Shown: positions 15,902 through 61,692 of the stretch, piece by piece
Position numbering within the stretch: position 1 is the first letter of the stretch
How the letters are laid out: each line of letters begins with the position of its first letter
NCBI GenBank assembly: GCA_033391075.1
Contig: JAWPMV010000001.1
Location: forward strand, 6,634,001 to 6,698,000
DNA: 64,000 nucleotides
DNA from: Bacteroidia bacterium
GTDB taxonomy: Bacteria; Bacteroidota; Bacteroidia; J057
Reading direction: 5' to 3'
Position numbers and translations under genes: made by a program
Notes under the pieces: model-generated
What the model was told of the DNA's origin: nothing
Seen by the model: only the letters and a program-made list of their open reading frames with translations
Database searches by the model: none

Positions 15902-15941
15902 AACACTAATACCCTAAAACCCAAACACCCTAATACTTCCT
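15902..15941 (+). repeat. single-arm 8-nt-phased repeat directly before a start codon
   Basis: Five octamers in register: AACACTAA, TACCCTAA, AACCCAAA, CACCCTAA and TACTTCCT. The last one ends 2 nt before the ATG at 15944. It is of the same kind as the A/C-rich arms of the hairpin elements elsewhere in the window. It lies in the 5' leader, so it may be transcribed and affect translation. Confidence 0.5.
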
Positions 15942-16780: not shown

Positions 16781-16837
16781 GTAAAAAGTGCGCGGGTAAT
16801 AAGAAAGCTGAAATAGAAATAAATAACACCAAGGCGT

Positions 16838-16939: not shown

Positions 16940-16972
16940 AGGCTGTTTTGTTTTAATAAGATATTCTGGAAG

Positions 16973-17791: not shown

Positions 17792-17811
17792 GATTGCAAG
17801 AACGCGAATGG

Positions 17812-17860
17812 GAAGCCTTCCGCGCAAGCTCCCTTTCCCTTTTTCGAATGGAAAAATGGA
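17812..17860. repeat. inverted fragment of the 251-bp repeat unit
   Basis: In reverse complement this resembles the second part of the 251-bp units (matching their CTCCC...TTTTTCG...GGAAAAATGG hairpin). It borders the array on the left and has been captured into an in-frame extension of the upstream gene's reading frame. Confidence 0.5.
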
Positions 17861-17871
17861 AACAACCCACA

Positions 17872-45282: not shown

Positions 45283-46374
45283 TCAATTTATACCTAGGGA
45301 AAGGGCTTTTGATTGTTCAGAGCCCTTTTTTATTTGAGCATTATTTTCATCCAAATCAGCAAAATATTCCATTAGCATTCGGTGAATAAATATATAGCCA
45401 CCTCCTACCTGTTGCATGAATTGGAGGTCATTGACAACATAATCCAGAAATCTTTCATAATTCCAGGGACCGTAGCCTCTGATATATATATAAAATCGTA
45501 AAGCATAATGGCGGATTACAAAAATTCCGCTGTTCGATTTGAAGTAAAAAACTAATAAACCGATAGAAAAACCTGCCCATATTGCACCTAACAATGAATA
45601 AATTAAAGAGTCGTATACATTTTCTCCTATCGATAAGCTGAAAACAAAGATCAATATTGCGCCGACAAAGCCAGAAATAAACATGCCATTCTTTCCATTT
45701 CTAAATGCATCCTTCTTTAATTTTTTTATACCGTAGTTTGGAATTAAAGAATCCGTTTCAAATACAGATTTAGCTTTAGCAATATCACTTATCATTTTCT
45801 TCCTCATTCGGCTAGATGCAATTACCATTGCCACAATACATACGAGATAGATCCATAAAAGGAAACCGATAAAAAAGAATAGGTAAAATTCCATAACCAA
45901 GATAGATGGAGATCCCACAATACCCGCTACAGAGCCAAAAAATATCCCTATAAGAGTAAGAAGGATCCATCTCTCTTTTATTATATTTTTTATTTCCCGA
46001 AACATATATTTATTTCGGGCCATAAAATTACTCTTGCTATCAAGTACTCCACCTATGGGTAAAATAGCTCTTTCTATTTTTTTAGGATTGGAAAAAAAAA
46101 CATAAAAAATCCAAATTATTAATCCTAGGAGCCACGTTATCAGCATCCCTGGATTTACTATACAAATAGGGATAAAAACAAGTACCTCAAAGAAAGAATT
46201 GAATATCCAATACATTCGTTTATCCCCTTTCCTTGTCAACCAGCTAGACTGTAGCTGTTCTATCATGAAAATAGTTTGTTGTTGTTGCTGCATATTTTTT
46301 GCTAGCCACGATAACCATTTATCCGTCTTTTTTTGAGGATAGCAAGGCATTTCTTTTAGATAAGGATTCTTCAT
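45283..46374 (-). CDS. multi-pass membrane protein, detached C-terminal part of the CHAT-NACHT protein
   Basis: 363 residues with about eight hydrophobic segments (for example LVFIPICIVNPGMLITWLLG, WILLTLIGIFFGSVAGIVG, GMFISGFVGAILIFVFSL). It starts with YPQKKTDKWLSWLAKNM and IFMIEQLQSSWL and ends with GPWNYERFLDYVVNDLQFM and GGGYIFIHRMLMEYFADL. In single-chain NACHT proteins of this type these elements follow the NACHT domain in the same polypeptide. Here its ATG overlaps the upstream TGA as ATGA, so it is a translationally coupled split gene or a frameshift. AT content looks higher than in the surrounding genes. Its last codons lie over the terminator of the opposite-strand gene. Confidence 0.82.
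   Translation of the reverse strand: MKNPYLKEMPCYPQKKTDKWLSWLAKNMQQQQQTIFMIEQLQSSWLTRKGDKRMYWIFNSFFEVLVFIPICIVNPGMLITWLLGLIIWIFYVFFSNPKKIERAILPIGGVLDSKSNFMARNKYMFREIKNIIKERWILLTLIGIFFGSVAGIVGSPSILVMEFYLFFFIGFLLWIYLVCIVAMVIASSRMRKKMISDIAKAKSVFETDSLIPNYGIKKLKKDAFRNGKNGMFISGFVGAILIFVFSLSIGENVYDSLIYSLLGAIWAGFSIGLLVFYFKSNSGIFVIRHYALRFYIYIRGYGPWNYERFLDYVVNDLQFMQQVGGGYIFIHRMLMEYFADLDENNAQIKKGSEQSKALSLGIN
45300..45332 (+). terminator. terminator after the TonB-like gene
   Basis: Stem AAAGGGCT / AGCCCTTT, 13-nt loop, then TTTTT on the plus strand. It overlaps the 3' end of the convergent membrane-protein gene. Confidence 0.75.
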
Positions 46375-48527: not shown

Positions 48528-48788
48528 GAAAAGGGCGGCGTTTCCATACAATATAACTTTTTTTGGGGGGAAATTTCTACCGTGCCTTTTTTAGATTTTT
48601 CCAAAAAATGGTTAATAAATAGCCCATTAATTGATTTTTCTAATACATGCAGAACTGGAGGACCAGAAAGTAAAGAAACATTTGAAGGCTTAGCCTCATC
48701 TAGTATGTGCTATTTTTAGCTTTCAAAAAGTAAGCATGAGTAATTCCAATTTTTGAATTAAACTAAAGAACCATCTTATCCTAAATTC

Positions 48789-49222: not shown

Positions 49223-49227
49223 GTTTG

Positions 49228-49300
49228 TGGTGCGGGCCAGAATCGAACTGGCGACACCAGGATTTTCAGTCCTGTGCTCTACCAACTGAGCTACCGCACC
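49228..49300 (-). tRNA. tRNA-Phe (anticodon GAA)
   Basis: Full cloverleaf on the minus strand. Acceptor GGTGCGG/CCGCACC, D arm GCTC-AGTTGGTA-GAGC, anticodon stem CAGGA/TCCTG with loop CTGAAAA (anticodon GAA at 49267-49265), and T arm GCCAG-TTCGATT-CTGGC. The discriminator is A. CCA is not encoded. A terminator follows. Confidence 0.97.
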
Positions 49301-49617
49301 GACCGCTCTAGTTTAGAGTGCTGCAAATGTAGCATAATTGAATGTTTATCTCCAAAAATTTTTGATAAAAATTTTGGGGAGGTGTTCATGTGTTCTCGTA
49401 TTCTGCTGTTCTTGGGAGGAAATAAACTTGAACACAAGAATAGATGAACACCAGAACACCCTCGGTTCCATAAATTAAACCCGTTTATTTGAGGCACTTC
49501 AAACAAGCCTTAGATTTGATTTGTTATGCTTGCATACTATTTATTGTAATGGATTAGTCGCTTTATTCTTGCAAAAGCAGAATATCGCCCATATTTTGAA
49601 GGAATATATATCAACCC
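49301..49617. other. 317-bp gap between tRNA-Phe and the Fe-S gene
   Basis: It contains the tRNA promoter region and the 8-nt-phased hairpin at 49382-49465. The remainder is AT-rich and I see no gene in it. Confidence 0.5.
49382..49465. repeat. 8-nt-phased hairpin element A
   Basis: Left arm octamers GTGTTCAT, GTGTTCTC, GTATTCTG, CTGTTCTT; spacer GGGAGGAAATAAAC; right arm TTGAACAC, AAGAATAG, ATGAACAC, CAGAACAC, then CCTCGG. Arms pair unit by unit with mismatches. Confidence 0.7.
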
Positions 49618-50988
49618 ATGATACAGAGCATCCTTTTTCTACTACTTCTGATTGCCGGTTTCGGCTTCTTTGGATACCAGCTTAAATCAATCATACAAAA
49701 TATTAAACTCGGCAGGCCCGAAGATCGCAGCGACCGCCCCGGCGAACGTTGGAAGAATATGATATTGGTTGCCTTTGGCCAGCAGAAGATGTTCAAAAGA
49801 CCCATCCCGGCGCTTTTGCACCTGGCCATATATGTGGCTTTTATCATCACACAGATCGAACTAGTAGAGATCATCGTGGATGGGATCAGTGGCAGCCATC
49901 GGATTTTCAGGCCTCTATTGGGAGGATTCTATACCTTCACCATCAGTTTCATTGAGATTCTTTCGGTACTCGCATTTGTAGCGACCCTGGCATTTTTGAT
50001 CAGAAGAAATTTGCTCAAGCTGCCTCGCTTTCACATGGATGAAATGACGGGCTGGCCTAAACTGGACGGGAACATCATTTTGTACCTGGAAATCATGTTG
50101 ATCATTTTCATCTTCATGATGAATGGGGGAGATGAGGCCTTGTATAATATGGCGAAAACCCATACGGTAGGAGCTGCAGGAGAAGCGGGTTCATTTGGAT
50201 TTTCGATTAGCAAAATATTAGGACCTGCTTTGTTTGGGGGAATGAGTGAAGCAAGCCTGCATATCATCGAACGTATTGGATGGTGGGGTCATATCCTTGT
50301 GGTATTTACTTTCCTCAATTACCTACCGATTTCCAAGCACTTCCATATCATGCTGGCTTTCCCCAATACCTATTTTGCCAGATTGGAGCCCGCTGGAGAA
50401 TTGACTTCTCCCCAAAATATTCAGGAAGAAATAAAAGCCATATTCGATCCCAGCTATCAACCCGCAGAAGATCCCAATGCCCCCAATCGTTTTGGAGCCA
50501 AGGATGTGACGGACCTGAGTTGGAAGAGTTTGCTCGATGCCTATACCTGTACGGAGTGCGGAAGGTGTTCCTCTGTTTGCCCTGCCAATCTGACTGGGAA
50601 GAAACTTTCTCCCAGAAAGGTCATGATGGATACACGAGACAGAATGCAGGAAATCCAGCAATTCAAACTGAAGCCGGATGATACAGGCATGATGGTTCCC
50701 GGAAATGGGGTAGAAGGGGCAGAAGAGGCTGCAAAAAACACCTTATTGGGAGAAAAGTACATTACAGAAGAAGAACTACGGGCTTGTACAACCTGCAATG
50801 CCTGTGTAGAAGCTTGTCCTGTAATGATCAATCCGGTAGATATTATTGTAGAACTTCGCCGCTACCTCGTCATGGAAGAATCTTCTATGCCGGAAGAGTG
50901 GGCATCGATGTCAAACAATATAGAGAATAATGGAGCTCCCTGGGCTTTTCCTGCAGCGGACAGATTTAATTGGGCAAATGAGGAGTAG
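49618..50988 (+). CDS. membrane Fe-S oxidoreductase subunit (HdrC/GlpC-like with NarI-type helices)
   Basis: 456 residues. The N-terminal ~270 residues carry about five membrane helices (first MIQSILFLLLLIAGFGFFGY) with conserved His residues, as in cytochrome b (NarI/DsrM-type) parts. The C-terminal part has two 4Fe-4S motifs, CTECGRCSSVCP (~309-320) and CTTCNACVEACP (~390-401). It is usually called an (Fe-S)-binding protein of the heterodisulfide-reductase type, and probably moves electrons between a soluble donor (often ETF) and the quinone pool. The following gene supplies the CCG-domain subunit 37 bp downstream, so the two form one complex. Confidence 0.88.
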   Translation: MIQSILFLLLLIAGFGFFGYQLKSIIQNIKLGRPEDRSDRPGERWKNMILVAFGQQKMFKRPIPALLHLAIYVAFIITQIELVEIIVDGISGSHRIFRPLLGGFYTFTISFIEILSVLAFVATLAFLIRRNLLKLPRFHMDEMTGWPKLDGNIILYLEIMLIIFIFMMNGGDEALYNMAKTHTVGAAGEAGSFGFSISKILGPALFGGMSEASLHIIERIGWWGHILVVFTFLNYLPISKHFHIMLAFPNTYFARLEPAGELTSPQNIQEEIKAIFDPSYQPAEDPNAPNRFGAKDVTDLSWKSLLDAYTCTECGRCSSVCPANLTGKKLSPRKVMMDTRDRMQEIQQFKLKPDDTGMMVPGNGVEGAEEAAKNTLLGEKYITEEELRACTTCNACVEACPVMINPVDIIVELRRYLVMEESSMPEEWASMSNNIENNGAPWAFPAADRFNWANEE

Positions 50989-51025
50989 GCGTAGGACATA
51001 AATTTTGACTATTGACAAAAAAAAT

Positions 51026-51805
51026 ATGCAAGTACCTGTAATGGCCGACATGGCCGCTCAAGAAAAAAAACCTGAATATCTCTTTTGGGTAGGTTGTGCC
51101 GGTTCCTATGACGCACGCTACCAAAGGGTAAGTCGGGCTTTTGTCAAAATCCTCAATCATGTAGGTGTTGACTATGCTGTTCTGGGACCGGAAGAAACCT
51201 GTAATGGTGATCCGGCCAAACGTGCAGGTAATGAGTTCTTGTTCCAAATGCAGGCCATACAGAATATTGAAACGATGAATATGTACGAGGTGAAAAAAAT
51301 CATCACGGCCTGTCCACATTGTTTCAACACCCTCAAAAATGAATATCCTGCTCTGGGAGGAAATTATGAGGTTATTCACCATTCTACTTTCCTTCAGGAA
51401 TTGATCGATGCCGGTAAGGTAAACCTCAAAGGCGGAGGTTCATTCAAAGGAAAGAAGATCACCTTCCATGACTCTTGCTACTTAGGTCGCGCAAATGGCA
51501 TTTATGAAGCTCCCCGAAAGGTCCTCGAAGCCCTGGATGCCGACCTGGCAGAAATGAAGCGTTGTCGTACCAAAGGCCTCTGTTGTGGAGCAGGTGGTGC
51601 GCAAATGTTCAAGGAAGCCGAAAATGGAAAGAAAGAAATCAATGTTGAGCGCGCAGAAGAAGCCCTCGAAACCGGAGCCAAAATCATTGCCGCTGGTTGT
51701 CCTTTCTGCATGACGATGATGACAGATGGCGTAAAACACTTTGAGAAAGAAGAGGAAGTACAGGTTCTGGATTTGGCGGAGATGGTAGCGGAAGACTTGG
51801 AATAA
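51026..51805 (+). CDS. CCG-domain Fe-S protein (HdrB-like)
   Basis: 259 residues, cytosolic. Two CCG (cysteine-rich) domains: the first with VGCAGSYDARYQR, ETCNGDPAKR and ACPHCFNTLKNEYP, the second with HDSCYLGRANGIY, KGLCCGAGGAQMF and AGCPFCMTMM. These bind the non-cubane or cubane clusters of HdrB/GlpC/LldE-type proteins. Partner of the preceding membrane subunit. ATG at 51026 (MQVPVMADMAAQEKK) is chosen over an in-frame TTG at 51005. Followed by an 8-nt-phased hairpin, then the convergent uspA gene. Confidence 0.9.
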   Translation: MQVPVMADMAAQEKKPEYLFWVGCAGSYDARYQRVSRAFVKILNHVGVDYAVLGPEETCNGDPAKRAGNEFLFQMQAIQNIETMNMYEVKKIITACPHCFNTLKNEYPALGGNYEVIHHSTFLQELIDAGKVNLKGGGSFKGKKITFHDSCYLGRANGIYEAPRKVLEALDADLAEMKRCRTKGLCCGAGGAQMFKEAENGKKEINVERAEEALETGAKIIAAGCPFCMTMMTDGVKHFEKEEEVQVLDLAEMVAEDLE

Positions 51806-51822
51806 GCCGAAGGCTTATGGAA

Positions 51823-51902
51823 GTTTTATAGTTTTGTAGTGTTATAGTGCGGTTGTTGTATATCACTTTAACTACAACACTAAAACACTACAACACCTCC
51901 TC
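51823..51902. repeat. 8-nt-phased hairpin element B
   Basis: Left arm GTTTTATA, GTTTTGTA, GTGTTATA, GTGCGGTT, GTTGTATA; spacer; right arm ACTACAAC, ACTAAAAC, ACTACAAC, ACCTCCTC. GTTTTGTAGTGTTATAGTG pairs with the right arm at 17 of 19 positions. It fills the gap between two convergent genes. Confidence 0.75.
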
Positions 51903-52735
51903 TATTGCACCGCAACTAAGAGCGGCACCTGCGTCCTGAAAATAAAATTCCTCGCCAGAGATCCATTTATCCAATGCTTATAACTAGCCTTGCGAGGAAG
52001 GAGCAAGGAGATCAAATCAGCTTTATACATATTGGAAAACTCCCGGATACCATTGAGTACGTTTCGATGGATCAGGGTATAAAAGAATATTCTATTGCTG
52101 GGATCTTCCTGTAGGCGAAAAATGCGCTCAAGCTTAGCACCTTTGATCTTGCCGTGTACATCATCCTCTGTCTTTACGTAGACGCAGGAAACATGGGCAT
52201 CGGCCTCCATAGCCAATTGTTCAACCTTACAGGGAACTCGGGTATCTTCTTCCTGGAAACTGGTTCCGTAAACCAGATGATTGATGGGTTTCCATTCGGC
52301 ATCGGGCGGAATGATCAGAATAGGGCAGGGGGCCTTTGATAGAATAGCTGTAGCCGTATTCCCCAGCATTTTCTTTTTGAAGCTCTGTGTATTTCCTGAA
52401 CCCATGATGATGAGATCCACCTCAGAATAATCCGCATATTCCGAAATGGCGTCTTCGGCTTTTCCAGCTTTTAGAACTGGATGAATAGATACGACCTCAT
52501 TTAAATCTGCACGAAGGTGTTTGAGGTATTTAAGGAAATGCTTCTGAGCCGTAAACTCTCCTTCTCGCTCCAGAGAATTATGAATTTCATCGGGAATGAG
52601 TTTTGATTTTCCCCGACCCAATTTATAGGCATGTATAAAAGAAAGTGTCGCTCCGATCTGAGCTGCCAATTGTATAGCATATCTTCCGGCGTGATCAGAA
52701 CCCTCCGAGAAGTCCGTAGCAATAAGTAGTTTCAT
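51902..52735 (-). CDS. tandem universal stress protein (UspA family)
   Basis: 277 residues comprising two Usp domains. The first (1-145) begins MKLLIATDFSEGSDHAGRYA and ends with the ATP-binding loop IIMGSGNTQSFKKKMLGNTA and CPILIIPP. The second (~150-277) is diverged: it keeps ISLLLPRKASYKHWINGSLAR and VPLLVAV but lacks the G-x2-G-x9-G(S/T) loop. One half is therefore likely nucleotide-binding and one structural, as in many double Usp proteins. Single gene, divergent from the transglycosylase. Confidence 0.92.
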   Translation of the reverse strand: MKLLIATDFSEGSDHAGRYAIQLAAQIGATLSFIHAYKLGRGKSKLIPDEIHNSLEREGEFTAQKHFLKYLKHLRADLNEVVSIHPVLKAGKAEDAISEYADYSEVDLIIMGSGNTQSFKKKMLGNTATAILSKAPCPILIIPPDAEWKPINHLVYGTSFQEEDTRVPCKVEQLAMEADAHVSCVYVKTEDDVHGKIKGAKLERIFRLQEDPSNRIFFYTLIHRNVLNGIREFSNMYKADLISLLLPRKASYKHWINGSLARNFIFRTQVPLLVAVQ

Positions 52736-53069
52736 TTGGTAGATCGAAAGCTTTGACGGATGTACGAATCTACAAAATAATAATGAGGATGAATAGTCAA
52801 AGATTTATATAAAAACGCAAGCTCGCCTATACAGAATTGTACGTTTCTGTACATGTTTTCCAAAAATATTAGCAATGGCATTAGCATTGCTAATCATCTT
52901 CCCAAAACAAATATCCACCCAATCCTCTTATTATCAAACAATTATGCACAATTTTGCATTTCTGGCATCCTCTTTGATAATTTTGTTTGCATAAATACTA
53001 AATTAATTAGTACATTTGTAATAAGCATTATTTTTATTCGCATGAATTGGACCTTCAATCTTTGATGGC
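52736..53069. other. 334-bp divergent intergenic region
   Basis: AT-rich. It carries the leader of uspA on the minus strand and, near its right end, a Bacteroidota-type promoter for the transglycosylase gene. No gene is seen. Confidence 0.5.
52986..53018 (+). promoter_or_regulatory. Bacteroidota-type promoter before the transglycosylase gene
   Basis: TTTG at 52986-52989, 21-bp spacer, then TACATTTG at 53011-53018, matching the -33 TTTG / -7 TAnnTTTG consensus of Bacteroidota primary sigma. It is about 50 bp before the ATG. Confidence 0.5.
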
Positions 53070-53804
53070 ATGAGTACTTATGGACAAAAGCCCGCTATGA
53101 GAGGGCAGAGGCGCTACCTCGTTTTATCTTTACCTTCCTTTCTTTCCGGTAGAAATACCAAATATCTTTGGATCGTTCTCCTGGTATTTGGGAGCAATTA
53201 TCTCACACACAAAATGTGGAACGATGGGAGCAGTATACAGACTGATATTATAGGAGCCACCTCAAATGAATTGTATCTGACGGAGAAAGCGGGTATGTAT
53301 ATACAGGATACCAAAAGCTTTACCCGAAGAGTAGAAGAAATCGCAGGCATGCTGGATGTACCCGCAGAATGGCTAATGACAGTCATGTATGCCGAATCCC
53401 GATTTGACGCAGGAGTAGCCAACTTTAAAGGGAGCGGAGCTGTAGGCCTGATCCAGTTTATGCCAGCTACTGCCTCTGACATGGGGATATCCGTAGACCG
53501 CTTAAAACACATGACTCCCGTTCAACAAATGGAGTATGTATTTATTTATCTACAAAGAAATAGAGAGCGCTATGGTGAATATGATAGCCTGACAGATCTT
53601 TATCTATCTATATTATACCCCAAAGCCAGAAAGCAAGATTACTGCTACACCCTTTATGCCAAACCTTCCAGGGCCTATAAACAAAACTCCGGACTGGACG
53701 AGGACAATGACGGCAGAGTTAATATTTCTGATATAGACAAGCATTTGAAACGTTTACACCCTACCGCATATATGATAGAGAAATACTCAAGTGAAGAAGG
53801 ATAA
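53070..53804 (+). CDS. lytic transglycosylase, SLT domain
   Basis: 244 residues. One N-terminal membrane anchor (KYLWIVLLVFGSNYL, ~30-45), then a Slt/goose-lysozyme-like domain. The catalytic Glu is in VMYAESRFD (~109), followed by GSGAVGLIQFMPATA, MTPVQQMEYVFIYL and SLTDLYLSILYP. It cleaves peptidoglycan glycan strands with anhydro-product formation, on the periplasmic side. The C-terminus holds a dockerin/EF-like Asp-rich loop (DEDNDGRVNISDIDKHLK), which is unusual and suggests calcium binding. Confidence 0.88.
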   Translation: MSTYGQKPAMRGQRRYLVLSLPSFLSGRNTKYLWIVLLVFGSNYLTHKMWNDGSSIQTDIIGATSNELYLTEKAGMYIQDTKSFTRRVEEIAGMLDVPAEWLMTVMYAESRFDAGVANFKGSGAVGLIQFMPATASDMGISVDRLKHMTPVQQMEYVFIYLQRNRERYGEYDSLTDLYLSILYPKARKQDYCYTLYAKPSRAYKQNSGLDEDNDGRVNISDIDKHLKRLHPTAYMIEKYSSEEG

Positions 53805-53808
53805 AAAA

Positions 53809-53887
53809 GTGTTCTGGTGTTCAAGTGTTCTCGGTTTCTGGCAAATAATAGCTATAACACCAGAACACTTGAACACGAGAACACCTC
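53809..53887. repeat. 8-nt-phased hairpin element C (clearest copy)
   Basis: Left arm GTGTTCTG, GTGTTCAA, GTGTTCTC, GGTTTCTG; 15-nt spacer; right arm AACACCAG, AACACTTG, AACACGAG, AACACCTC. The arms pair at about 26 of 29 positions, including an uninterrupted GTGTTCAAGTGTTCT. It begins 4 bp after the transglycosylase stop. Confidence 0.85.
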
Positions 53888-54268
53888 CCCCTATGTTAAA
53901 AACATAGCAATATTAAATCGAAAGTTCGAAATATTTTTCTCACCTTTGTAGAGCATTAAGCACATTCCATCCCTCATTAGCTCAAAATTTTATATTCCGT
54001 GACTTCGTAGTAAGGCTTTACGTCTAAATAGCATTAAAGCAAGAAACGATGATCGAAAACTACGACTTTCTACTATCGGCGGGCTAAATTGTCCATAGAC
54101 GCAAATTTTATTCTTTATGCATATACTTCGGATATCCGGATAAATATGTAGCTAAAAATAAATTTTTGTAAATCATCCAAACCACACTCGATATGGCCTG
54201 ATTGTTGTCTTTTAAAGATTATTCATTCTTGTACAAGATTCAATGGGGAATTTTAAAATCAAAGCTTA
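53888..54268. other. 381-bp gap, no recognised gene
   Basis: AT-rich sequence with a small hairpin CTATGTT-AAA-AACATAG at about 53891-53907 and short frames only (for example 12 codons from the ATG at about 54048). It could hold the promoter of the small membrane protein gene at 54269. I see no structured RNA that I recognise. Confidence 0.4.
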
Positions 54269-54439
54269 ATGAACTCAGTTTTAGATGCGGTAATTGTTCT
54301 ATTTTGGTCTACCTTTTTCTTAGCTACTGTCCTAGGGGTTATTAATGAATATCGAAAGCACGAAGAAAACTACAGCGAGGAGCAAAGCCTCGATGATGAT
54401 GATCCCGTTTTTCTTATGCAGGGACAAATGGAAAAGTAG
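54269..54439 (+). CDS. small single-pass membrane protein, 56 residues
   Basis: Short frame MNSVLDAVIVLFWSTFFLAT... with one membrane helix (~6-26) followed by a charged, acidic cytoplasmic tail (YRKHEENYSEEQ, DDDDPVF). The bias towards hydrophobic residues, then a positive-charge stop-transfer (NEYRKH), then acidic residues supports a real gene. No family recognised. It converges on the RHH protein gene. Confidence 0.5.
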   Translation: MNSVLDAVIVLFWSTFFLATVLGVINEYRKHEENYSEEQSLDDDDPVFLMQGQMEK

Positions 54440-54489
54440 CTATCCCTATTCAATAGCTAATCTCTTCAATTATAAATCTCTCTTATCGA

Positions 54490-54936
54490 TTAGAGTTTAC
54501 CATCGTTTTCTACGTACCATTTCAATGCAATGTGAATCACCTCTTTAAGATTGAGTTGTTTCAATTTTGCAATTTCCTTGGCACGATCAAGGACATTGGT
54601 GGGTATGCTGGTACTCAGACGAGTTTCGAACTCCTTATTTAATGTTGAGGTATTTTTCTTTTTCTGAGTCCAGGAAGGATTATTAGGAATGATATCATCG
54701 AAGGCATTGTTTTCCAGGGCATCTTCTATAGATTCCAGAAAGCTTTTCCTTCGCTTTTTTGTGTCTGCTGTTTTCGAAGAAGTAAATGCGCTTTTCTTTT
54801 CTGACTTTTCATCTTGCAAAGCTTTGAGAAAGTTCTTCCTCTTCGCGGGCTTCTGACCCTTACGCATAGGAATCACGTCTTGAAGCATATCATCTTCAAA
54901 TACATCTCCCAAAGTTTCCAAGAATTTCTTTGCCAT
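54490..54936 (-). CDS. ParA-partner protein: repeated FLE motif plus C-terminal RHH-like domain
   Basis: 148 residues, basic. Two copies of a ~20-residue motif are visible, KKFLETLGDVFEDDMLQDVIP (from residue 3, one residue longer) and KSFLESIEDALENNAFDDIIP (from about 64), with a shorter third (KNFLKALQDEK). Lys/Ser/Thr-rich linkers separate them. The C-terminal ~45 residues (STSIPTNVLDRAKEIAKLKQ...EVIHIALKWYV) look like a ribbon-helix-helix domain as in ParG/Omega-type centromere-binding proteins. It starts 15 bp after the parA stop. It probably stimulates ParA and binds DNA or a cargo. Not a classical ParB. Confidence 0.7.
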   Translation of the reverse strand: MAKKFLETLGDVFEDDMLQDVIPMRKGQKPAKRKNFLKALQDEKSEKKSAFTSSKTADTKKRRKSFLESIEDALENNAFDDIIPNNPSWTQKKKNTSTLNKEFETRLSTSIPTNVLDRAKEIAKLKQLNLKEVIHIALKWYVENDGKL

Positions 54937-54951
54937 CTATTAAGTTTCTTT

Positions 54952-55710
54952 TTAAAGAGCTACTTCTACTTGTAATCTGTGAAGGACTTCCTCAGCCAGG
55001 CTGGTATAATCTATCGCTCCATTGCAATCAGGGTCATATTCAAAAATATGCTGCCCCAAACTCTGCGATTCTGCCAAGGCTACATTTCCCCTGATCTTGG
55101 TTTTGAACACTACCTCATCATATTGCTGAGTGGCATGCTCAAGGATATCTCTATGTAATACTTTACGGTGATCAAATTGGGTAGTTACGATTCCCAATAA
55201 TTCCAGCTCGCTATTCATGCGGGTTTTAACGGTCCGCAAGATCTTGATAAAGTCTGTCATCCCCTGCAGAGCCAGAAACTCCGGCTGTAAGGCGATCAGT
55301 ACTACATCGCTCGCTGTAAGAGCTGAAATGGTCAGAGCCCCCAGAGATGGCGGACAATCTATCAGAATAAAATCGAAGTCATCCTTAATGGATGAAAGAC
55401 TTTCCTGAAGGATAAACTCTTTCCCAACTTCCGTATTCTTTTCAAAGCCGGCCAAATGAACGGAAGCCGGAACGATGAACATATCAGAAATAGGTAGAAT
55501 CATTTTTCTGATATCCTCACCAAATGCCAAAACCTGGTAAATGGTCCGGTCCTGTTTCTTTAGACCTACGGAGAAAGTCGCATTTGCCTGGGGATCCAAA
55601 TCCAGGATCAACACACGAGCGCCGGTACGGGCCAGTGCTGCTGCCAGGTTAACGGTTGTGGTTGTTTTCCCTACGCCGCCTTTATGATTAGCAATTGAGA
55701 TTACACTCAT
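54952..55710 (-). CDS. parA: ParA/Soj-family ATPase
   Basis: 252-residue ParA-type deviant Walker ATPase. Walker A' KGGVGKTTT at ~10-18, A'' LDLDPQANAT, Walker B DFILIDCPPSLGAL, and ALQPEFLALQGM. It binds DNA non-specifically in the ATP state and moves a partner-marked cargo along the nucleoid. No N-terminal HTH is present, so it is the short chromosomal or type Ib type. No gidA/gidB/parB genes accompany it, which marks it as an orphan ParA whose partner is the downstream small RHH-like protein. The leader on the minus strand carries TAATTTTG (55746-55739), matching the -7 box only. Confidence 0.92.
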   Translation of the reverse strand: MSVISIANHKGGVGKTTTTVNLAAALARTGARVLILDLDPQANATFSVGLKKQDRTIYQVLAFGEDIRKMILPISDMFIVPASVHLAGFEKNTEVGKEFILQESLSSIKDDFDFILIDCPPSLGALTISALTASDVVLIALQPEFLALQGMTDFIKILRTVKTRMNSELELLGIVTTQFDHRKVLHRDILEHATQQYDEVVFKTKIRGNVALAESQSLGQHIFEYDPDCNGAIDYTSLAEEVLHRLQVEVAL

Positions 55711-56151
55711 AGAAGTTTTTTTGCAAATCCTGTTTGATCAAAATTAGCCAATCGCTAAGAGAATAAAAAATCTGGAGACTGGAATTTCCGAAAGCATTTT
55801 ATTTAATTTTTTTAGGACCAATGCTTCAACTGATTTTTTTCAAAAATCTGACTATCAGGAATATATATAGCTTCACATAGTTCATTGCTTTAAATTATTT
55901 TTTTTCTCCTTCTTATGCGTGAATTCTCAAATTTCGATCCATTTTATGATACTTGCCTTCTTTTTTGACGAAAGCTGAAATCCCCCTGATAAGATTTGAT
56001 TATATATGCAAAAGCTATTATCCTTCCTCTATTTTATAACTGAATACCCTTTGAAAATAACCATTGAATCATAAAGGCTGGAAAGATAGAAGGGAGAGAC
56101 CTAGATTTATGAGAACATTCCGTTTGGGTATAAACAGATCTTTCTTATTTC
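55711..56151. other. 441-bp divergent gap between parA and the DUF695-RraB gene
   Basis: Very AT-rich, with poly-T runs and no ORF above ~20 codons. It includes a TAATTTTG (-7-like) sequence on the minus strand for parA at 55739-55746 without a good upstream TTTG. No repeats of the families described elsewhere were seen. Confidence 0.5.
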
Positions 56152-56928
56152 ATGAACCATACTGTAATTGATCACTCTCATACAGAGTGGGATTTCTACT
56201 TTTGTACAGTAGAAGACAAGCCAGCATCTATTATGCTGGATCTTGCTCTCATAGATCAAGCACCGATAATAGGAAAAATAGATTTTATTCAGGTTGCTGT
56301 AGATCTAAACAGTCCAAATGAACACGGCCTTACTATGCCAGGTGAAGCAGAGGTACTATATGTTATGGAGGACAGACTCGCAGAACATATGTCCGAATCA
56401 CTTGGAGGCATGTATGCCGCTCGCAACACAACCAATGGACAAAGAATTTTTTACTTCTATTGCAATTCTTCTATCGGGCACGAAGCCATCATAGAAGAAG
56501 TAATGGAGAGCTTTGGAGATTATACATATAAGATTAAAGCGCATCTCGATACAGAGTGGGCCTTTTATCTCCAATTTATCTATCCGTCCCGGCTAGAGTA
56601 TCAGTCTATCCTCAATCGTAGAGTTTTGGATAAGATTGGACAGCATGGGGATCCTATGACTGAAGCCAGAAATGTAGATCACTATGTTCACTTTGAGTCT
56701 GAACAGGATAGAGAGGAATTCATTCAGGAAGTAAAGCCGGAAAACTTTCGCATTATGAAAAAAGGATTTGATCCGCTGCGAAATGGACTTCCCTATTCTT
56801 TGATCATTAGTAGATTGGAGCAAATGGAGACTGCTACCATTGATGAAGCCGTATTCTACCTCATACAGGCAGCAGAAGCCAGTCAGGGAGAATATGACGG
56901 CTGGGAAACCGGTGTGATCCTCGAATAA
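56152..56928 (+). CDS. DUF695 - RraB-like fusion protein
   Basis: 258 residues. The N-terminal ~140 resemble DUF695 (EWDFYFCTVEDKPASIMLDLAL, VAVDLNSPNEHGL, RIFYFYCNSS). The C-terminal ~110 resemble RraB/DUF1260, the E. coli inhibitor of RNase E: DKIGQHGDPMTEARNVDHYV, FRIMKKGF and a final acidic helix with GEYDGWETGVIL. Each is known as a separate bacterial domain, and fusions occur. Bacteroidota have an RNase G/E-type enzyme, but a regulatory role here is inference. Single gene; stop 4 bp from the Nramp gene end. Confidence 0.75.
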   Translation: MNHTVIDHSHTEWDFYFCTVEDKPASIMLDLALIDQAPIIGKIDFIQVAVDLNSPNEHGLTMPGEAEVLYVMEDRLAEHMSESLGGMYAARNTTNGQRIFYFYCNSSIGHEAIIEEVMESFGDYTYKIKAHLDTEWAFYLQFIYPSRLEYQSILNRRVLDKIGQHGDPMTEARNVDHYVHFESEQDREEFIQEVKPENFRIMKKGFDPLRNGLPYSLIISRLEQMETATIDEAVFYLIQAAEASQGEYDGWETGVILE

Positions 56929-56932
56929 GTGT

Positions 56933-58231
56933 TTATTTGAAGATCCTGTAAGCCAACCAGGCTGAGATCAGGACAGAAAGTCCGATCAAGATAAAAAGGT
57001 AGGTACCCAAGGCAGGTAATTCAAGGGATAAAGCCGAGAAAGAAGCTTTCATCACTTGATTCAAGCCAAGGACAATGCTCACCGCCACGATTAACAAGGA
57101 TACAAGATTCAAGCCCGTAGAATTTCTAAATTCTGCGGGCATTAATTTTTTATCATTTACCACCAGCAGAAGAAAGGCTGCAACAAAAGGTAGGAGTAAT
57201 CCATTGAGTGCCTGCGCCAGAATGATAATCGGAATAGGTTTTACTCCCATTACCCCAAATGCCATACCGCTCACTAATACGATGCCCCAGACTCCTATAT
57301 AAGATCGGGATTTCTCTCCCCATTCATTTCCCTCTTTGGCAAAGATACTTTGTGCGGTAACAGCTGCCGCGAGAGGAGCCGTTACAGAAGAAGTAAATCC
57401 GGCAGCGAAAAGTCCAATTCCAAATAAAACGGCGGCCCAGTTTCCAAGACCACTTTGCATAGCCTCAGCCATACCTGCAAAGCTAAAAGGCGCCTGCATA
57501 GTGCTCCCCACTAATAAAATGGCCATGGAAATCAATCCTCCCAGAATAATCGCAATCCCAAGCCCCCATCTCATTTCACGTATGTCCTGATTTTTACTCA
57601 TGCCTGAGCCTAAAAAAAGGTTGTAAGGCACAATGGTAGTACCAATCAATCCAATGACGAGAATGCCCGATCCTTCGGGGAAAGTCGGGATCAGACTGCT
57701 TCCCAGTGCATTTCCCCAACTTACCTCCGAACTCAGCGCAACCACAATAAAAGCAAATCCCATGGTAGCGACCACCATTCCCAAAATGCGAGAAATACGC
57801 TGGATATTTGCCAGAAGTAGGACACCCGCTGCAAGCAAGGCAATTACAATGGTAAAGATGAGTTGCCAGTTCATGGCCCCACTTTCCCCAAATAATAAGA
57901 TAGCCCCCGAAACAGAACCCAGGATATTGCCGGCCTGATAAGCAATTCCCCCTGAAATGATCGCAACGGCCATTGCTACCGGAATGAAATGTCCATGCCC
58001 ATATCGTTTTACCAGGGCTTGTCCAAGATTTAATCCGGAAGCAAGGGGAATTCTGGCAGCTGCTTCCTGTAAAAGAAAGCAGGCAAAAGTGGAAAAGGTC
58101 AAAGCCCATAAAAGGCTAAGTCCGTATTCTGCACCTGAAGAGGCTGCAGTTGTAACGGTACCGGGTCCAATGAATGCGGCCGAGATTACCGACCAAAAGA
58201 TGATACGACTGAGTTTTATTTTCGCCACCAT
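56933..58231 (-). CDS. Nramp-family transporter lacking the canonical metal-binding residues
   Basis: 432 residues, 11 predicted membrane helices of the LeuT-fold Nramp family (FWSVISAAFIGPGTVTTAAS, SSGAEYGLSLLWALTF). In canonical Nramp (MntH) TM1 has DPGN and TM6 MPH. At the aligned places this protein has GPGT (AAFIGPGTVTTAA) and VPYN (GTTIVPYNLFLGSG), so the Asp, Asn, Met and His that hold Mn/Fe are all replaced. It is therefore probably not a standard manganese/iron importer. The gene overlaps the adenylate cyclase gene upstream by 16 bp, so the two are co-expressed. Confidence 0.85.
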   Translation of the reverse strand: MVAKIKLSRIIFWSVISAAFIGPGTVTTAASSGAEYGLSLLWALTFSTFACFLLQEAAARIPLASGLNLGQALVKRYGHGHFIPVAMAVAIISGGIAYQAGNILGSVSGAILLFGESGAMNWQLIFTIVIALLAAGVLLLANIQRISRILGMVVATMGFAFIVVALSSEVSWGNALGSSLIPTFPEGSGILVIGLIGTTIVPYNLFLGSGMSKNQDIREMRWGLGIAIILGGLISMAILLVGSTMQAPFSFAGMAEAMQSGLGNWAAVLFGIGLFAAGFTSSVTAPLAAAVTAQSIFAKEGNEWGEKSRSYIGVWGIVLVSGMAFGVMGVKPIPIIILAQALNGLLLPFVAAFLLLVVNDKKLMPAEFRNSTGLNLVSLLIVAVSIVLGLNQVMKASFSALSLELPALGTYLFILIGLSVLISAWLAYRIFK

Positions 58232-59970
58232 GGTTTTTTCTGAGGCTTAGGAGTAGTAGCTTGAAAGTTCTTCTTGACAAATAAGTCATTTACGAAGTAC
58301 ATATCCACTGCTCCGGCATTTTTTACCTCAATTTTTCCTCTTGGGGTAGTGCTGGCAACTTTTTCGATCAGTTGCTTGGTTCGAGCGGAGATGTTGATTT
58401 TGCCGGGTTCTCCACTGGATTCCATTCGACTCGCCATATTTACCGCATCCCCCCAGATGTCATAGGCAAATTTGTGTTGACCAATCACTCCGGCTACGAC
58501 CGGTCCTGAATTGATCCCTATGCGAAGTTCCCAGGGAGTCTCTCCTTTGCGAAGCTTTTCGGTCCTCCACTTCTTCATGAAAGCCTGCATCTCTAAGGCT
58601 ACCCCAACTGCATCCAGGGCATGGTCCTTACTAGGATTGGGTACCCCTGCCGCAGCCATATAAGCATCCCCGATGGTTTTGATTTTTTCCAGTCCGTATT
58701 TCCGGGTGATATGATCAAAGGTTTCAAAAGCATAATCCAGATCTGCTACCAGTTTATCCGGTGAAAGGCTGGCTGCTATTTTGGTAAAGCCCTTGAAGTC
58801 GGTAAATAATATGCTGACTTCCTGATACTTCTGTGGTTTGGCTTTCCCTGCTACCATGATTTCTTTAACAATGGGTTCAGGCAGCACATCGTATAATAAG
58901 CTTTCGGATTTTAGTTTCTCTTTTTCTATGGCTTTGGCATGTTTCCTTCTGGAGCGAATCCTGCCAAACATAAATAGCACAGTCAGCAAGAATACAATCC
59001 CGCCTCCAAGTCCTAAGAGTTGATAACGTTCTTCCTCTCTTTTCTGGCGTTCCAATTGAGCTTCCTGTTCGGCTTCGATTTTATTTTTCTCAGCCTCAAT
59101 CATGGCATTCTTAAGCTCTAGCTTGTCCAGCTCCTGTGCCTTCAATTCAATCTCCGCAATCTTTGCATCTCGCTCCATTTCTGCCAACTGCTTCTCAGTT
59201 ACCAAAGTCTCAGCAAATTCTTCTTGTTCTTCTATTTTTTGCTGAGCATTTTCGATTTCCTGTTGGGCTATTTTAACTTCATTTTCTGCTTCTTCTTTTT
59301 CCAGGCGAGTTTCCAAAACAGCCATGCTTGCCGTTTTGATACGATCTGCATTTCGAGAAAGGGTACTCATGCCCAACTTATTTGCCTGTTCTATGCTTTT
59401 ATCCAATGCCCCAACCGCTGTCGCATGATCTCCCATTTTATTTTGCAATTGGCCAACCTGAAACATCCCCCATGCATATTCATGTCGATTTTTACTTTCG
59501 ATGGAATAGCGCACACCCGTTTGATAGGACTTCAGGGCAGCCTGATCTTTCCCACTTTGTTCTTCACAGTGTCCGATCAGTCGGTAGTCTTTGGCTATAC
59601 TGCTTTTATAGGAGGCTTTTTTAGGGATGAGCTGCTTTTTGAGGCTCACGGCTTTATTGAGATTATCCAGGGCTTTGACACAATTCTTTTTGTTGATGTA
59701 TAAAAGCCCCATATAACTATGGCTTTGAACCACCCCTTCTTTGCTTCTTCTTTTTTGAGAAAGATCCAGAGCTCCCTGCGCAAATTCGAGTGCCGCATCA
59801 GGATTTTGGGAGGATACTTTCCGGGCAGCATCCAGGTACATTTTCACCTTATTGAAATCATCAGGAGCTGCAGCTAATTCATTGCGAAGCTCTTCAAGGC
59901 TTTGTGCCTGAAGGTTTATACTGATGACTGCAAGGAAGAAAAGGGAACCAAAAAGGGATCTGAAATTCAT
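58216..59970 (-). CDS. TPR adenylate cyclase (class III), membrane-bound
   Basis: 584 residues. Signal sequence MNFRSLFGSLFFLAVISINLQAQ, TPR-like helical repeats (~30-210, for example DAALEFAQGALDLSQKRR), a long Glu/Lys/Gln-rich coiled coil (~215-315), one membrane helix (LLGLGGGIVFLLTVLFMF, ~320-338), and a cytoplasmic class III cyclase domain (~380-560). It has metal-binding Asp in SILFTDFKGFT, EKIKTIGDAYMAAAG (Lys at the adenine-specifying site), YDIWGDAVNMASRM (Asp at the second specificity site) and the transition-state Asn/Arg. This points to ATP, not GTP, as substrate. A cNMP-binding protein is encoded divergently next to it. ATG at 59970 gives a clean signal peptide. Confidence 0.93.
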   Translation of the reverse strand: MNFRSLFGSLFFLAVISINLQAQSLEELRNELAAAPDDFNKVKMYLDAARKVSSQNPDAALEFAQGALDLSQKRRSKEGVVQSHSYMGLLYINKKNCVKALDNLNKAVSLKKQLIPKKASYKSSIAKDYRLIGHCEEQSGKDQAALKSYQTGVRYSIESKNRHEYAWGMFQVGQLQNKMGDHATAVGALDKSIEQANKLGMSTLSRNADRIKTASMAVLETRLEKEEAENEVKIAQQEIENAQQKIEEQEEFAETLVTEKQLAEMERDAKIAEIELKAQELDKLELKNAMIEAEKNKIEAEQEAQLERQKREEERYQLLGLGGGIVFLLTVLFMFGRIRSRRKHAKAIEKEKLKSESLLYDVLPEPIVKEIMVAGKAKPQKYQEVSILFTDFKGFTKIAASLSPDKLVADLDYAFETFDHITRKYGLEKIKTIGDAYMAAAGVPNPSKDHALDAVGVALEMQAFMKKWRTEKLRKGETPWELRIGINSGPVVAGVIGQHKFAYDIWGDAVNMASRMESSGEPGKINISARTKQLIEKVASTTPRGKIEVKNAGAVDMYFVNDLFVKKNFQATTPKPQKKPWWRK

Positions 59971-60049
59971 GTGGAAAGGCTGTCTTTCGAATGAAACAAA
60001 TTTACGCATCAAAGCCAGAACAAGGAATCATTTCTGTTTAAAGGAGCAA

Positions 60050-60057
60050 TAATTTTG
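60050..60057 (+). promoter_or_regulatory. possible -7 box (TAATTTTG) of the cNMP-binding protein gene
   Basis: TAATTTTG matches TAnnTTTG, about 110 bp before the ATG. The -33 TTTG is poor (TTTCTG at about 60031), so this is tentative. Confidence 0.3.
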
Positions 60058-60168
60058 TCTGGTACAAAATATTTTTAGGGGGAGAAGAATCGTAGCTGAA
60101 CAAAAATGCGAAAGAAAGAAGTAAAAACCTATTATCTTTAGGCGCCGAATTTCTTTCGAGGAAGCCAT

Positions 60169-61560
60169 ATGGAGTTTAGTAAAATTAAAGAGAACCTTCA
60201 GCTCTCCTCTCTTTTCTCAAAGTTGACAGAAGAAGAACTAGAACGTGTGGCTCAAAGAGCCAAGTTCCGTCAATTTTTTGCAGGAGACGTGATTGTGTGG
60301 CAGGGTCAACCCAGTACGACACTTTTCATCGTTGTAAATGGGATCGTAGCAGTGAAACAGGTATCCTCTGACCGGGAACGCCTATTGGCATATCTGATGC
60401 CTGGAACCACCTTTGGAGAGGTAGGGATATTGGAGAATGCTCCTCGTTCGGCTACTGTTGATGCCCTAAGTGAAGTAGATGTTTTGGTCATTCAGAGAAA
60501 AGATTTTCTGGATATCATGAACAGTCATCCCAGTGTTGCCATAGAACTTGCCAGAATCCTGGGTCGTTATCTGGTCGATTCCAATAGACGCCATAGTAAG
60601 GCTTTTAAGGAAAGTAAACTGATCCTGGTTTTTCATCCGGAAGACAAGAACAATGGTAGTACCAGTTTTTCTGCTTTGCTGGCAGAAGAAATGGCCCATA
60701 CCCTGCATACCCCTACAGCTCTCTTTGAATATCCCAATCCCTGGCGTATTCTCAGAGGATATGATCTGGGGAAAGGCAGCAGTGTATACCACCATCATGA
60801 AGGTTACGATATTCTTTTTCCGACCGGAGAAAGATATCTACCCGTAAACACTCGGGTTACCTTGATGCTCGACAATATTCGAAGCAATTATGATAATATT
60901 GTCATTCACGTTCGAAACCATGTGGATGAAGGTGTAGGTATCATGGTCGAACAGGCGGACCAGATCGTTGTGATGGTTTCTCCTACTGATAAAGGGATCA
61001 AAAATGGAGAAAGGATCATGAAGCAACTTAAAGGGAAAATCAAGCCCAATGAGACTTCGGTTATTACGATCTCCAATCACGGTCGACCTGAATTTAAAGA
61101 GCTTGAACCCATTGCCTGGGCAGACTATACCCTTCCTTTTGAAGAAGCCTTCCCAAGATTCCAACTTCCCAATCGAGTAGTCGAAGAAGTCCCTGAATCA
61201 TTTTCCAGTTTACTATCAAATTGTATAGAAAGACTGGAGCGAACCAATAGCATAGGGATATTTATTCCAACTACTCTGGATGCAGATCAGGAAGCTGACA
61301 CTTCAAAATATATGGATCAGGCTATGAATTTTATGGCCGAAAGGTTTGGAGGGGCCACCTGCAAAACAGCCAATGGTGTATGGCACAGTGAGAAATTGGG
61401 ATTGATTGGAGAAGTCGTGTACATCGTCCATTCCTATATCACACAGGCGGATATGAATAGCCATCTGGATGAAGTAGTAGATTATATCAAAATCCTCAAG
61501 AAAGAACTCCGCCAGGAGGCTATGGCTCTTGAGGTAAATCAGAAACTGACTTTGATTTAA
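60169..61560 (+). CDS. cyclic-nucleotide-binding protein with degenerate MinD/ParA-like C-terminal region
   Basis: 463 residues. Residues ~13-135 are a CRP-type cNMP-binding beta barrel with the phosphate-binding cassette FGEVGILENAPRSATV (Glu and Arg retained), so cAMP binding is likely. There is no helix-turn-helix. The rest (~150-460) has the strand/helix order and SKLILVFHPEDKNNGSTSFSALLAEEMA start of CpaE/MinD-type proteins, but the Gly-Lys-Thr P-loop is replaced. It continues with NIVIHVRNHVDEGVGIMVEQADQIVVMV. Together with the divergent adenylate cyclase 200 bp away it makes a synthesis/receptor pair. The downstream GCS2-CBS gene follows after a phased hairpin. Confidence 0.82.
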   Translation: MEFSKIKENLQLSSLFSKLTEEELERVAQRAKFRQFFAGDVIVWQGQPSTTLFIVVNGIVAVKQVSSDRERLLAYLMPGTTFGEVGILENAPRSATVDALSEVDVLVIQRKDFLDIMNSHPSVAIELARILGRYLVDSNRRHSKAFKESKLILVFHPEDKNNGSTSFSALLAEEMAHTLHTPTALFEYPNPWRILRGYDLGKGSSVYHHHEGYDILFPTGERYLPVNTRVTLMLDNIRSNYDNIVIHVRNHVDEGVGIMVEQADQIVVMVSPTDKGIKNGERIMKQLKGKIKPNETSVITISNHGRPEFKELEPIAWADYTLPFEEAFPRFQLPNRVVEEVPESFSSLLSNCIERLERTNSIGIFIPTTLDADQEADTSKYMDQAMNFMAERFGGATCKTANGVWHSEKLGLIGEVVYIVHSYITQADMNSHLDEVVDYIKILKKELRQEAMALEVNQKLTLI

Positions 61561-61565
61561 GATGT

Positions 61566-61644
61566 GTAAACGTACTGGAGTCTTGGCTTGTTGGAGTTGT
61601 ATCCAAAAATTTACACCAGCACGCCAGCACCCCAACACGTTTAT
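61566..61644. repeat. 8-nt-phased hairpin element D
   Basis: Left arm GTAAACGT, ACTGGAGT, CTTGGCTT, GTTGGAGT; spacer with AAAAATTT; right arm ACACCAGC, ACGCCAGC, ACCCCAAC, ACGTTTAT. Reverse complement of the right arm aligns with the left arm unit by unit (ATAAACGT/GTAAACGT, GTTGGGGT/ACTGGAGT, GCTGGCGT/CTTGGCTT, GCTGGTGT/GTTGGAGT). Confidence 0.7.
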
Positions 61645-61692
61645 GGAAAATTCTATATATTATGGTGTAGGACTATTAAAACGAAACAGCCC

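Follow-up and report, generated by a model that had tools for sequence, protein, structure and literature searches.

Intergenic octamer hairpins of a Bacteroidia genome as probable gene-less relatives of repeat-array elements that carry an S23 gene

The window, a 64,000-nt stretch of a Bacteroidia bacterium sequence (contig JAWPMV010000001.1), contains four intergenic hairpins and one solitary array, all built from short units in register (Table 1). Inverted arms of register units are clear in elements 1–3 and weak in element 4, and the folding of all four elements beats every one of 200 dinucleotide shuffles each. No S23/PF05635 gene lies between the arms of the window elements, whose loops measure ~10–30 nt. 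A sequence-only reading of this DNA had listed the four hairpins, all of which are real, and had missed the solitary array. Its description of a shared format rather than a shared sequence was too strong, since 5′ units of the consensus GTGTTNNN and 3′ units of the consensus AACACNNN are common to the four elements, and its placement of an element after a tRNA has to be reversed, element 1 lying upstream of tRNA-Phe. This tRNA was the sole match in the window to reach the Rfam threshold, both with respect to insertion of the elements in an rRNA gene and with respect to a known RNA family, which was thereby ruled out. A sixth cluster in the window (268–331) looked like chance on reading and was rejected as a member.

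Table 1. Repeat-array elements of the window (window coordinates) and related genes of the genome (C1 coordinates)
Feature	Coordinates	Strand	Composition	Fold z	Context
Element 1	49382..49465	.	GT arm (GTGTTCAT GTGTTCTC GTATTCTG CTGTTCTT), loop, AC arm (AACACAAG AATAGATG AACACCAG AACACCC)	−4.6	Between tRNA-Phe (minus strand, 49227-49300) and gene starting 49618
Element 2	51823..51902	.	NTA-type units (GTTTTGTA GTGTTATA ... AACACTAA AACACTAC AACACC)	−3.4	Flanked by convergent genes, stops 51805 (+) and 51902 (-)
Element 3	53809..53887	.	C-type units (GTGTTCTG GTGTTCAA GTGTTCTC ... AACACCAG AACACTTG AACACGAG AACACC)	−10.8	Starts ~4 nt 3′ of stop codon (53804)
Element 4	61566..61644	.	Most diverged copy; AC arm recognisable (CACCAGCACGCCAGCACCCCAACACG), GT arm weak	−4.0	Between stop (61560) and same-strand gene called from 61693
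Solitary AC-type array, four units	15908..15936	+	AATACCCT AAAACCCA AACACCCT AATAC		7 nt before ATG
PF05635 gene	C1:243215-243520				Bracketed by GT arm and AC arm
PF05635 gene	C1:3235091-3235387				Bracketed by GT arm and AC arm
Y1 transposase gene	C1:1090665				>5 kb from nearest listed array match

Analysis of the whole genome revealed that these hairpins belong to a real family in 8-nt register, as the sequence-only reading had proposed. The exact three-unit pattern GTGTTNNNGTGTTNNNGTGTT has 243 matches (128 + 115), compared with 4 for the reversed pattern. Further elements are found outside the window: clusters in a 400-kb contiguous sample and the window numbered 28 + 6, versus 4 + 0 on reversed sequence, and when these 464 kb were searched without a motif for hairpins whose arms resemble themselves at a lag of 5–12, eight were found, seven of them with a lag of 8 and one with a lag of 6, and none in the control. 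A stricter search of this kind had yielded 4 + 2 elements in this genome and not one in three others, after which the criteria were loosened. Array size is narrow, ranging from three to seven units with a mode of four. Clusters in the order GT then AC outnumbered those in the order AC then GT by 25 to 1 in the 400-kb sample and by 6 to 0 in the window, a count without a clean control, as reversed sequence gave 2 versus 10 and 0 versus 2, presumably through partial matches of the reversed arms to the pattern.

The claim that arm partners match unit by unit holds as an average tendency. True partners pair better than permuted ones (13.9 versus 11.3 over 20 elements, a value reached by 3 of 5000 permutations), yet the true partner is the best-pairing one in just three of 20 elements of this genome, indicating that much of the pairing is due to the shared consensus. 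Another reading is that the elements are bidirectional terminators or stabilisers of mRNA 3′ ends, kept by selection and of no mobile origin. Many do start a few nucleotides past a stop codon, and 11 of 33 elements are flanked by convergent genes, compared with 28 of 186 among the intergenic gaps that measure at least 80 nt. Nevertheless, we regard this explanation as very improbable: a scan of 49300–62000 for intrinsic terminators (a GC stem followed by a T run) names none of the four elements, element 1 is upstream of a tRNA, the solitary array precedes a start codon, ten arrays examined in a second genome (below) have no stem partner, and the S23 gene and its association with the arms would be left unexplained.

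Each of the two PF05635 (S23/23S-rRNA-IVP) genes of this genome has a GT arm on one side and an AC arm on the other, both belonging to the window-hairpin family and made of the same unit. S23/IVP proteins are present in 157 of the 198 genomes of the class searched, and a first survey of named S23 loci (79 of 80 counted, one flank being too short) found significant flanking inverted arms at 52 of 79, versus 3 of 70 control ORFs from the same loci. A wider search, allowed to extend 25 nt into the ORF, found significant arms at 120 of 151 S23 loci and none at the other 31; 118 of the 120 have a unit length of 7, 8 or 9 (best lag 7 in 94, 8 in 20, 9 in 4, 10 in 1 and 4 in 1). By group, arms were found at 2/2 loci of this genome, 50/66 of same-class genomes, 60/75 of named genomes and 8/8 on plasmids, where the narrower search had given 5/8. 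These loci are best-scoring matches rather than a random sample, with 8 of 20 plasmid matches examined; 157 loci entered the wider search, those not counted having no stop, no 85-codon ORF or too little flank, and the short loci L074, L076 and L078 were left out. Pooled arm self-identity is 0.587 at lag 7, 0.352 at lag 8 and 0.23–0.30 at other lags, compared with a flat 0.27–0.33 in control-ORF flanks. The 8-nt step of the sequence-only reading thus occurs as one of several, 7 being commoner and 9 also found.

The rows of lag 7–9 with significant arms span 20 named phyla, the same-class genomes being assumed to be Bacteroidota. They include a locus within an LSU rRNA gene, the 23S rRNA intervening sequence (IVS) of an Azospirillum plasmid (L178), which has heptamer arms. 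Heptamer arrays lie on both sides of three S23 genes of Nostoc plasmids, and in two plasmid stretches of 50 kb direct arrays are confined to lags 7 and 8 of the lags 5–10 tested. The full element consists of one S23/23S-rRNA-IVP four-helix-bundle gene with an array of short degenerate units on either side, the two arrays being inverted relative to each other; its units are octamers (GTGTTNNN/AACACNNN) here and in a Neomarinimicrobiota genome, heptamers in most other lineages and nonamers in a few. Elements of such build within 23S rRNA genes are the known IVS. Heptamers have already been published for one such element, that of Coxiella, and our literature search found no paper stating the general rule of an S23 gene between repeat arms.

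The nearest S23 relative of this genome's proteins (L091) is in that Neomarinimicrobiota genome, where dispersed arrays of the same octamers give 119 matches, with a control of 0; the same octamer was found in none of 12 same-family genomes checked. The L091 protein joins both S23 proteins of this genome in a supported clade (100/96), and dispersed gene-less arrays occur in two phyla that have this clade. None of ten dispersed arrays examined in the L091 genome has a hairpin partner, and most arrays there are solitary, indicating that what these copies have in common is the array and not the hairpin; the hairpin as a universal form was dropped. Gene-less periodic hairpins numbered 0 in 200 kb of a genome with ten S23 genes (G076; control 5), 4 in one with 14 (G128; control 0) and 1 in one with none (G092; control 0), so dispersed copies do not simply follow S23 gene number.

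Across phyla, arm sequence is predicted by how closely the S23 proteins are related. A Mantel test of protein relatedness against arm similarity gave a rho of 0.246 (top of 500 permutations, 0.065), and cross-phylum pairs (n = 4253) gave 0.182 (top of 1000 permutations, 0.092). For the 16 cross-phylum pairs with at least 60% protein identity, median arm similarity was 0.48, versus 0.19 overall, and the arms of L059 are, among 117 others, closest to those of L091 and L060. For the nearest cross-phylum protein neighbour, arms were above background in just 62 of 116 rows (mean 0.288 versus 0.212). Unit length also clusters on the S23 tree, with 16 changes compared with a shuffled mean of 22.7 (0 of 200 as low).

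Presence and absence of the element was followed at one orthologous site in one genus, located through thiolase matches (30 of 32 had loci). The 30 sites comprise 8 full, 7 empty (3–24 nt), 3 gene-less hairpins, whose heptamers differ from those of the full element, 2 remnants and 10 other. Full/empty sister pairs are strongly supported, and in two of these pairs the insertion lies directly 3′ of the stop codon with the old spacer of 3–4 nt retained; a target-site duplication, which together with terminal inverted repeats would mark a MITE of a DDE transposon, was not evident by eye at these two pairs, but their flanks are A/T-rich. Many losses of one old insertion could also give the full/empty pattern.

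These data bear on the possibility that the units arise by polymerase slippage, with hairpin-templated repair keeping the arms complementary and the S23 gene carried by chance, a process akin to the slippage or templated copying suggested by the sequence-only reading. Slippage surely adds and removes units, as heptamer number changes between strains in the Coxiella element (PMC4990558), and the degenerate arms pair not just with their partner but with other elements too. As the sole explanation we consider it unlikely, however, because both S23 genes of the genome lie within arms, flanking arms accompany S23 loci far more often than control ORFs, protein kinship predicts arm sequence between phyla, array size is narrow, the octamer recurs in a second phylum, alongside the same S23 clade, and in none of the 12 same-family genomes, and the presence or absence of the element at a site would be left unaccounted for.

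We therefore favour the view that the window hairpins are probably gene-less (non-autonomous) members of a family of S23-gene repeat-array elements, kin of the rRNA IVS. The enclosure of an S23 gene by two arrays of repeats 7 to 9 letters long suggests recognition of these repeats by its protein, so that the repeat-binding protein invoked by the sequence-only reading gains a candidate in the S23/IVP four-helix-bundle protein, its binding being putative and predicted from gene position and from kinship with the arms. Solved structures exist for S23/IVP ("four helix bundle") proteins. We propose that S23p, as a ring of five four-helix bundles set against arrays typically of four to five units, would bind the repeat units as RNA or single-stranded DNA, which could favour the persistence and spread of the element, or of an array that lacks the gene. 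RNase III, which cleaves the stem of the rRNA IVS (PMC4990558), may also cleave that of the element, and such cleavage would make insertion into transcribed regions tolerable.

More speculatively, and with considerable doubt, these elements might represent a bacteria-wide mobile class without transposase, recombinase or reverse transcriptase, consisting of a ring-forming S23 protein and its own recognition-unit arrays, in which the ring reads one 7-, 8- or 9-nt unit per subunit; such an element would seed solitary arrays and hairpins into intergenic gaps and rRNA, and would be the common source of the rRNA IVS and of many enigmatic intergenic short tandem repeats.

We found no stated function for S23/IVP proteins, and the origin and function of the rRNA IVS are called unclear (PMC4990558); if each protein has a cognate repeat unit, both become a question of binding. 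Such pairing would also supply a mechanism for the prominence of unit lengths 7 and 8 among intergenic repeats of bacteria, and would allow the very many hairpins without an explanation in each genome to be annotated as non-autonomous elements. For a type of repeat that has been puzzling in bacterial DNA, the S23-element reading offers an origin that can be tested.

Comparison with known systems begins with the accessory protein Avd of diversity-generating retroelements (DGRs), whose fold the S23p model resembles. For the L091 protein model, 2GSC (Xcc0516) is a match, and Avd (4DWL) and DGR RNP chains are weaker ones; the scores of this protein against the Avd profiles (PF22296, 27 bits, and DivGenRetAVD) are below the family cut-offs, and a resemblance of S23p to Avd is also drawn from PMC10053308. 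This likeness raises the possibility that S23p, as an Avd relative, hands element RNA to a host reverse transcriptase for copying to new sites, which we think quite unlikely, as reverse transcriptase PF00078 (RVT_1) has no match in this genome (99% complete), the L091 genome or G040. Together with the single Y1 transposase gene far from the elements, this means that no strand-joining enzyme was identified.

REP/BIME sequences with their RAYT (Y1) transposases resemble the window family in the very many short intergenic palindromes per genome and in a candidate protein encoded elsewhere. REPs are usually defined as GTAG/CGTC-tagged palindromes of 20–40 nt with an adjoining RAYT gene (compare PMC3733652), whereas the window family has no single conserved palindrome and is built of register units GTGTTNNN; this, and a single Y1_Tnp gene that is not beside the listed arrays, led us to reject identity. 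Cyanobacterial short tandem heptamers, Xanthomonas GGGAATC and Beggiatoaceae TAACTGA are likewise intergenic arrays of 7-nt units and differ in having no link to S23 in the available parts of PMC4692102 and PMC4679880. The heptamers published for Xanthomonas, Nostoc and Beggiatoa showed no excess in S23 arms relative to shuffled controls, one of the six being a rotation of its original and hence no control, and their equality with S23 arm units was rejected; a link between published short tandem heptamers and S23 elements is a prediction, not a result.

Among the closest systems is the 23S rRNA IVS with an S23p ORF of Leptospira, Coxiella and alphaproteobacteria, in which terminal inverted repeats enclose an S23/PF05635 gene as in the full element, with published heptamers (GACAGAT) in Coxiella (PMC4990558) and heptamer arms in the Azospirillum plasmid IVS described above. 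The window elements differ from it in lying outside rRNA genes, in being gene-less, in their octamer units and in their very many dispersed copies.

Analysis of the four window elements (see table) confirmed that they are genuine inverted repeats in 8-nt register, as the sequence-only reading had claimed, with 5' (GT) arm units of GTGTTNNN and 3' (AC) arm units of AACACNNN. The genome-wide scan which that reading had asked for revealed many further elements, the exact pattern GTGTTNNNGTGTTNNNGTGTT matching 243 times in the 9.49-Mb genome versus 4 for its backward reading; 24 of the 243 matches fall within the first 400 kb, and scaling up from exact matches gives, very roughly, an estimated 250 elements in the whole genome. 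Array clusters numbered 28 in the first 400 kb and 6 in the window (reversed control, 4 and 0). The period of eight also held in a motif-free scan, with lag 8 (the unit length at which an arm resembles itself) in seven of eight hits and none in the control. With calls from a simple gene caller (coding share 87% in the 400-kb sample and 82% in the window), none of the 33 clusters having a called gene on both sides lay inside a gene, and 11 of the 33 occupied convergent-gene gaps, compared to 28 of all 186 intergenic gaps of at least 80 nt.

The 43 arrays called in 464 kb carry three to seven units (10, 18, 10, 4 and 1 arrays with 3, 4, 5, 6 and 7 units, respectively), versus 4 arrays in the reversed control. 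By reading of the arrays, the outer ends are usually GANGTGTT / AACACNTC, with AACTAC or a similar sequence frequent as the inner unit. The variable triplet of the unit has CTG-like, NTA-like and NGN-like subtypes. The proposal that arms match unit by unit stood in part: true partner arms paired better than arms in permuted combinations, of which 3 in 5000 scored as high, but an arm's own partner was the best in only 3 of 20 elements. The window also holds a separate palindromic repeat and a large ORF (see table).

Features located in the window and at S23 loci of other genomes
Feature	Location	Description
Hairpin element	window 49382-49465	
Hairpin element	window 51823-51902	
Hairpin element	window 53809-53887	
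Hairpin element	window 61566-61644	
Solitary AACAC-type octamer array	window 15908-15936	7 nt upstream of a start codon; family member without GT arm
Palindromic repeat TTGCGAGCC..GGCGAAGCAATC	window 16751-18781	four near-identical copies at 17929, 18180, 18432 and 18683; spacing 251-252 nt
Large ORF	window 46371-48551, minus strand	presumably CHAT-type protease + NACHT-like NTPase, from reading the translation
S23 gene with long heptamer arrays (L176)	Pseudanabaena plasmid NZ_CP112875.1	between cas6 and cas4
Third S23 gene of Neomarinimicrobiota genome G243	contig C36 17299-17611	appears split, two overlapping matches

A family search found two PF05635 (S23/IVP) genes in this genome, and both lie between arms of the window-element family, CTG-type at one and NTA-type at the other, with a GT arm and an AC arm bracketing the gene about 0.45 kb apart; the product of L059, an S23 locus of this genome, matches PF05635 (105 bits) and also TIGR02436. 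Of the 198 genomes searched in the class, 157 encode PF05635, and among 29 full-length S23 loci the arm score exceeded 13 in 22 and z exceeded 4 in 19. Named genomes were scanned with an alignment of 15 proteins and 80 loci were kept. Under identical settings, significant flanking arms (better than all 25 shuffles and z >4) occurred at 52 of 79 S23 genes; among 70 control ORFs there were 3 with such arms, and two of these themselves resemble unit arrays. At these 52 loci, arms were about 4.5 units long (quartiles 4.0-5.5) and G exceeded C in the 5' arm in 46. A wider search found significant arms at 120 of 151 S23 loci, with a best lag of 7 in 94, 8 in 20, 9 in 4 and another value in 2. Three S23 loci on Nostoc plasmids have heptamer arms. 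Separately, 50 kb of Nostoc plasmid NZ_CP040276.1 contains gene-less hairpins of both kinds, five built from octamers resembling GCAGAGGA and two from heptamers (control, 1); when lags 5-10 were tested there, direct arrays occurred at 7 and 8 alone.

Comparison of S23 proteins with their arms revealed that protein identity correlates with arm similarity (rho 0.246, permutations <=0.065; 118 loci), also across phyla only (rho 0.182, permutations <=0.092; 4253 pairs, nameless genomes taken as Bacteroidota). The effect is concentrated in close pairs: among cross-phylum pairs, the 16 that share 60% identity or more had a median arm similarity of 0.48 versus 0.19 overall, and the nearest cross-phylum neighbour exceeded background in only 62 of 116. 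Unit length was grouped on the protein tree (16 changes versus a shuffled mean of 22.7). Both S23 proteins of this genome form one supported clade with that of L091, a Neomarinimicrobiota locus, and share its octamer. Array matches number 119 in the L091 genome (control, 0), while octamer arrays were absent from 12 same-family genomes and matched one to three times in 6 of 47 other relatives. This distribution points to transfer of whole elements. However, none of the ten arrays examined in the L091 genome had a stem partner, indicating that the array of four to five units, rather than the hairpin, is the common denominator; 15 arrays there comprise 2, 7 and 6 with 3, 4 and 5 units.

In five class genomes an element sits between genes that we take, on reading their translations, to be 3-hydroxyacyl-CoA dehydrogenase-like and thiolase-like, with both neighbours displayed for four and the upstream one alone for locus L063. 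Across 30 genomes of one genus, with states assigned by the analyst, 8 have a full site (470-557 nt) and 7 an empty one (3-24 nt); at this site 3 carry a hairpin of heptamers without a gene and 2 a remnant, and the content of the other 10 is of different kinds, among them other repeat families and other genes. On the thiolase tree the full state requires 8 changes, 7 of them forced by starred branches, and strongly supported sister pairs combine full and empty sites (L251/L255, 97/95; L256/L258, 100/100; L249/L253, 96/94). Gains and losses can each produce such a pattern. One full site has as its sister a gene-less hairpin built on another heptamer (L276/L278, 100/99), and the presence of different motifs at a single site favours independent insertion in at least some cases. 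In two pairs, the old spacer of 3-4 nt is still present at the full site, the insertion lying directly after the stop codon. Other inserts occur at this site too (L268, L270, L254 and L275): one is, by eye, a nucleotidyltransferase-like gene, and there are a further insert and other palindromic repeats, of TCATCCTGA and CCTCTCC types.

The L091 protein as modelled by AlphaFold (pLDDT 88.9) matched all five chains of both 2GSC (Xcc0516) and 2RLD and, with lower significance, Avd, the accessory protein of diversity-generating retroelements (4DWL), and chains of the DGR ribonucleoprotein. Xcc0516 is described as a toroidal homopentamer (PMC4990558) related to Avd (PMC10053308). The median pI of S23 proteins is 8.8 (n=151), which makes them mildly basic. 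Five subunits and four to five units per array would fit a ring in which each subunit may bind one repeat unit.

Our search of the open-access literature found, among the papers listed, no statement of a general rule joining S23 genes to repeat arms. Heptamer repeats are treated in PMC4679880 and PMC4692102, whose relevant passages do not mention the S23 link, and S23/IVP genes are listed in parts of PMC8700078 and PMC5524665. The placement of L176 agrees with the published association of S23 genes with cas loci, for which passages of PMC3936711 give 18 S23/IVP genes. The family identity of the window elements is well supported, and we limit our assignment to gene-less relatives of S23 elements, not filed as rRNA intervening sequences because they lie outside rRNA and are without an S23 gene. 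Sections of PMC4990558 describe the Coxiella intervening sequence as carrying heptameric GACAGAT repeats and being excised by RNase III, and give an older idea that the ORF of such sequences helps mobility. The Azospirillum plasmid locus L178 lies inside an LSU rRNA gene and has heptamer arms, tying the S23-arm family to these classical intervening sequences.
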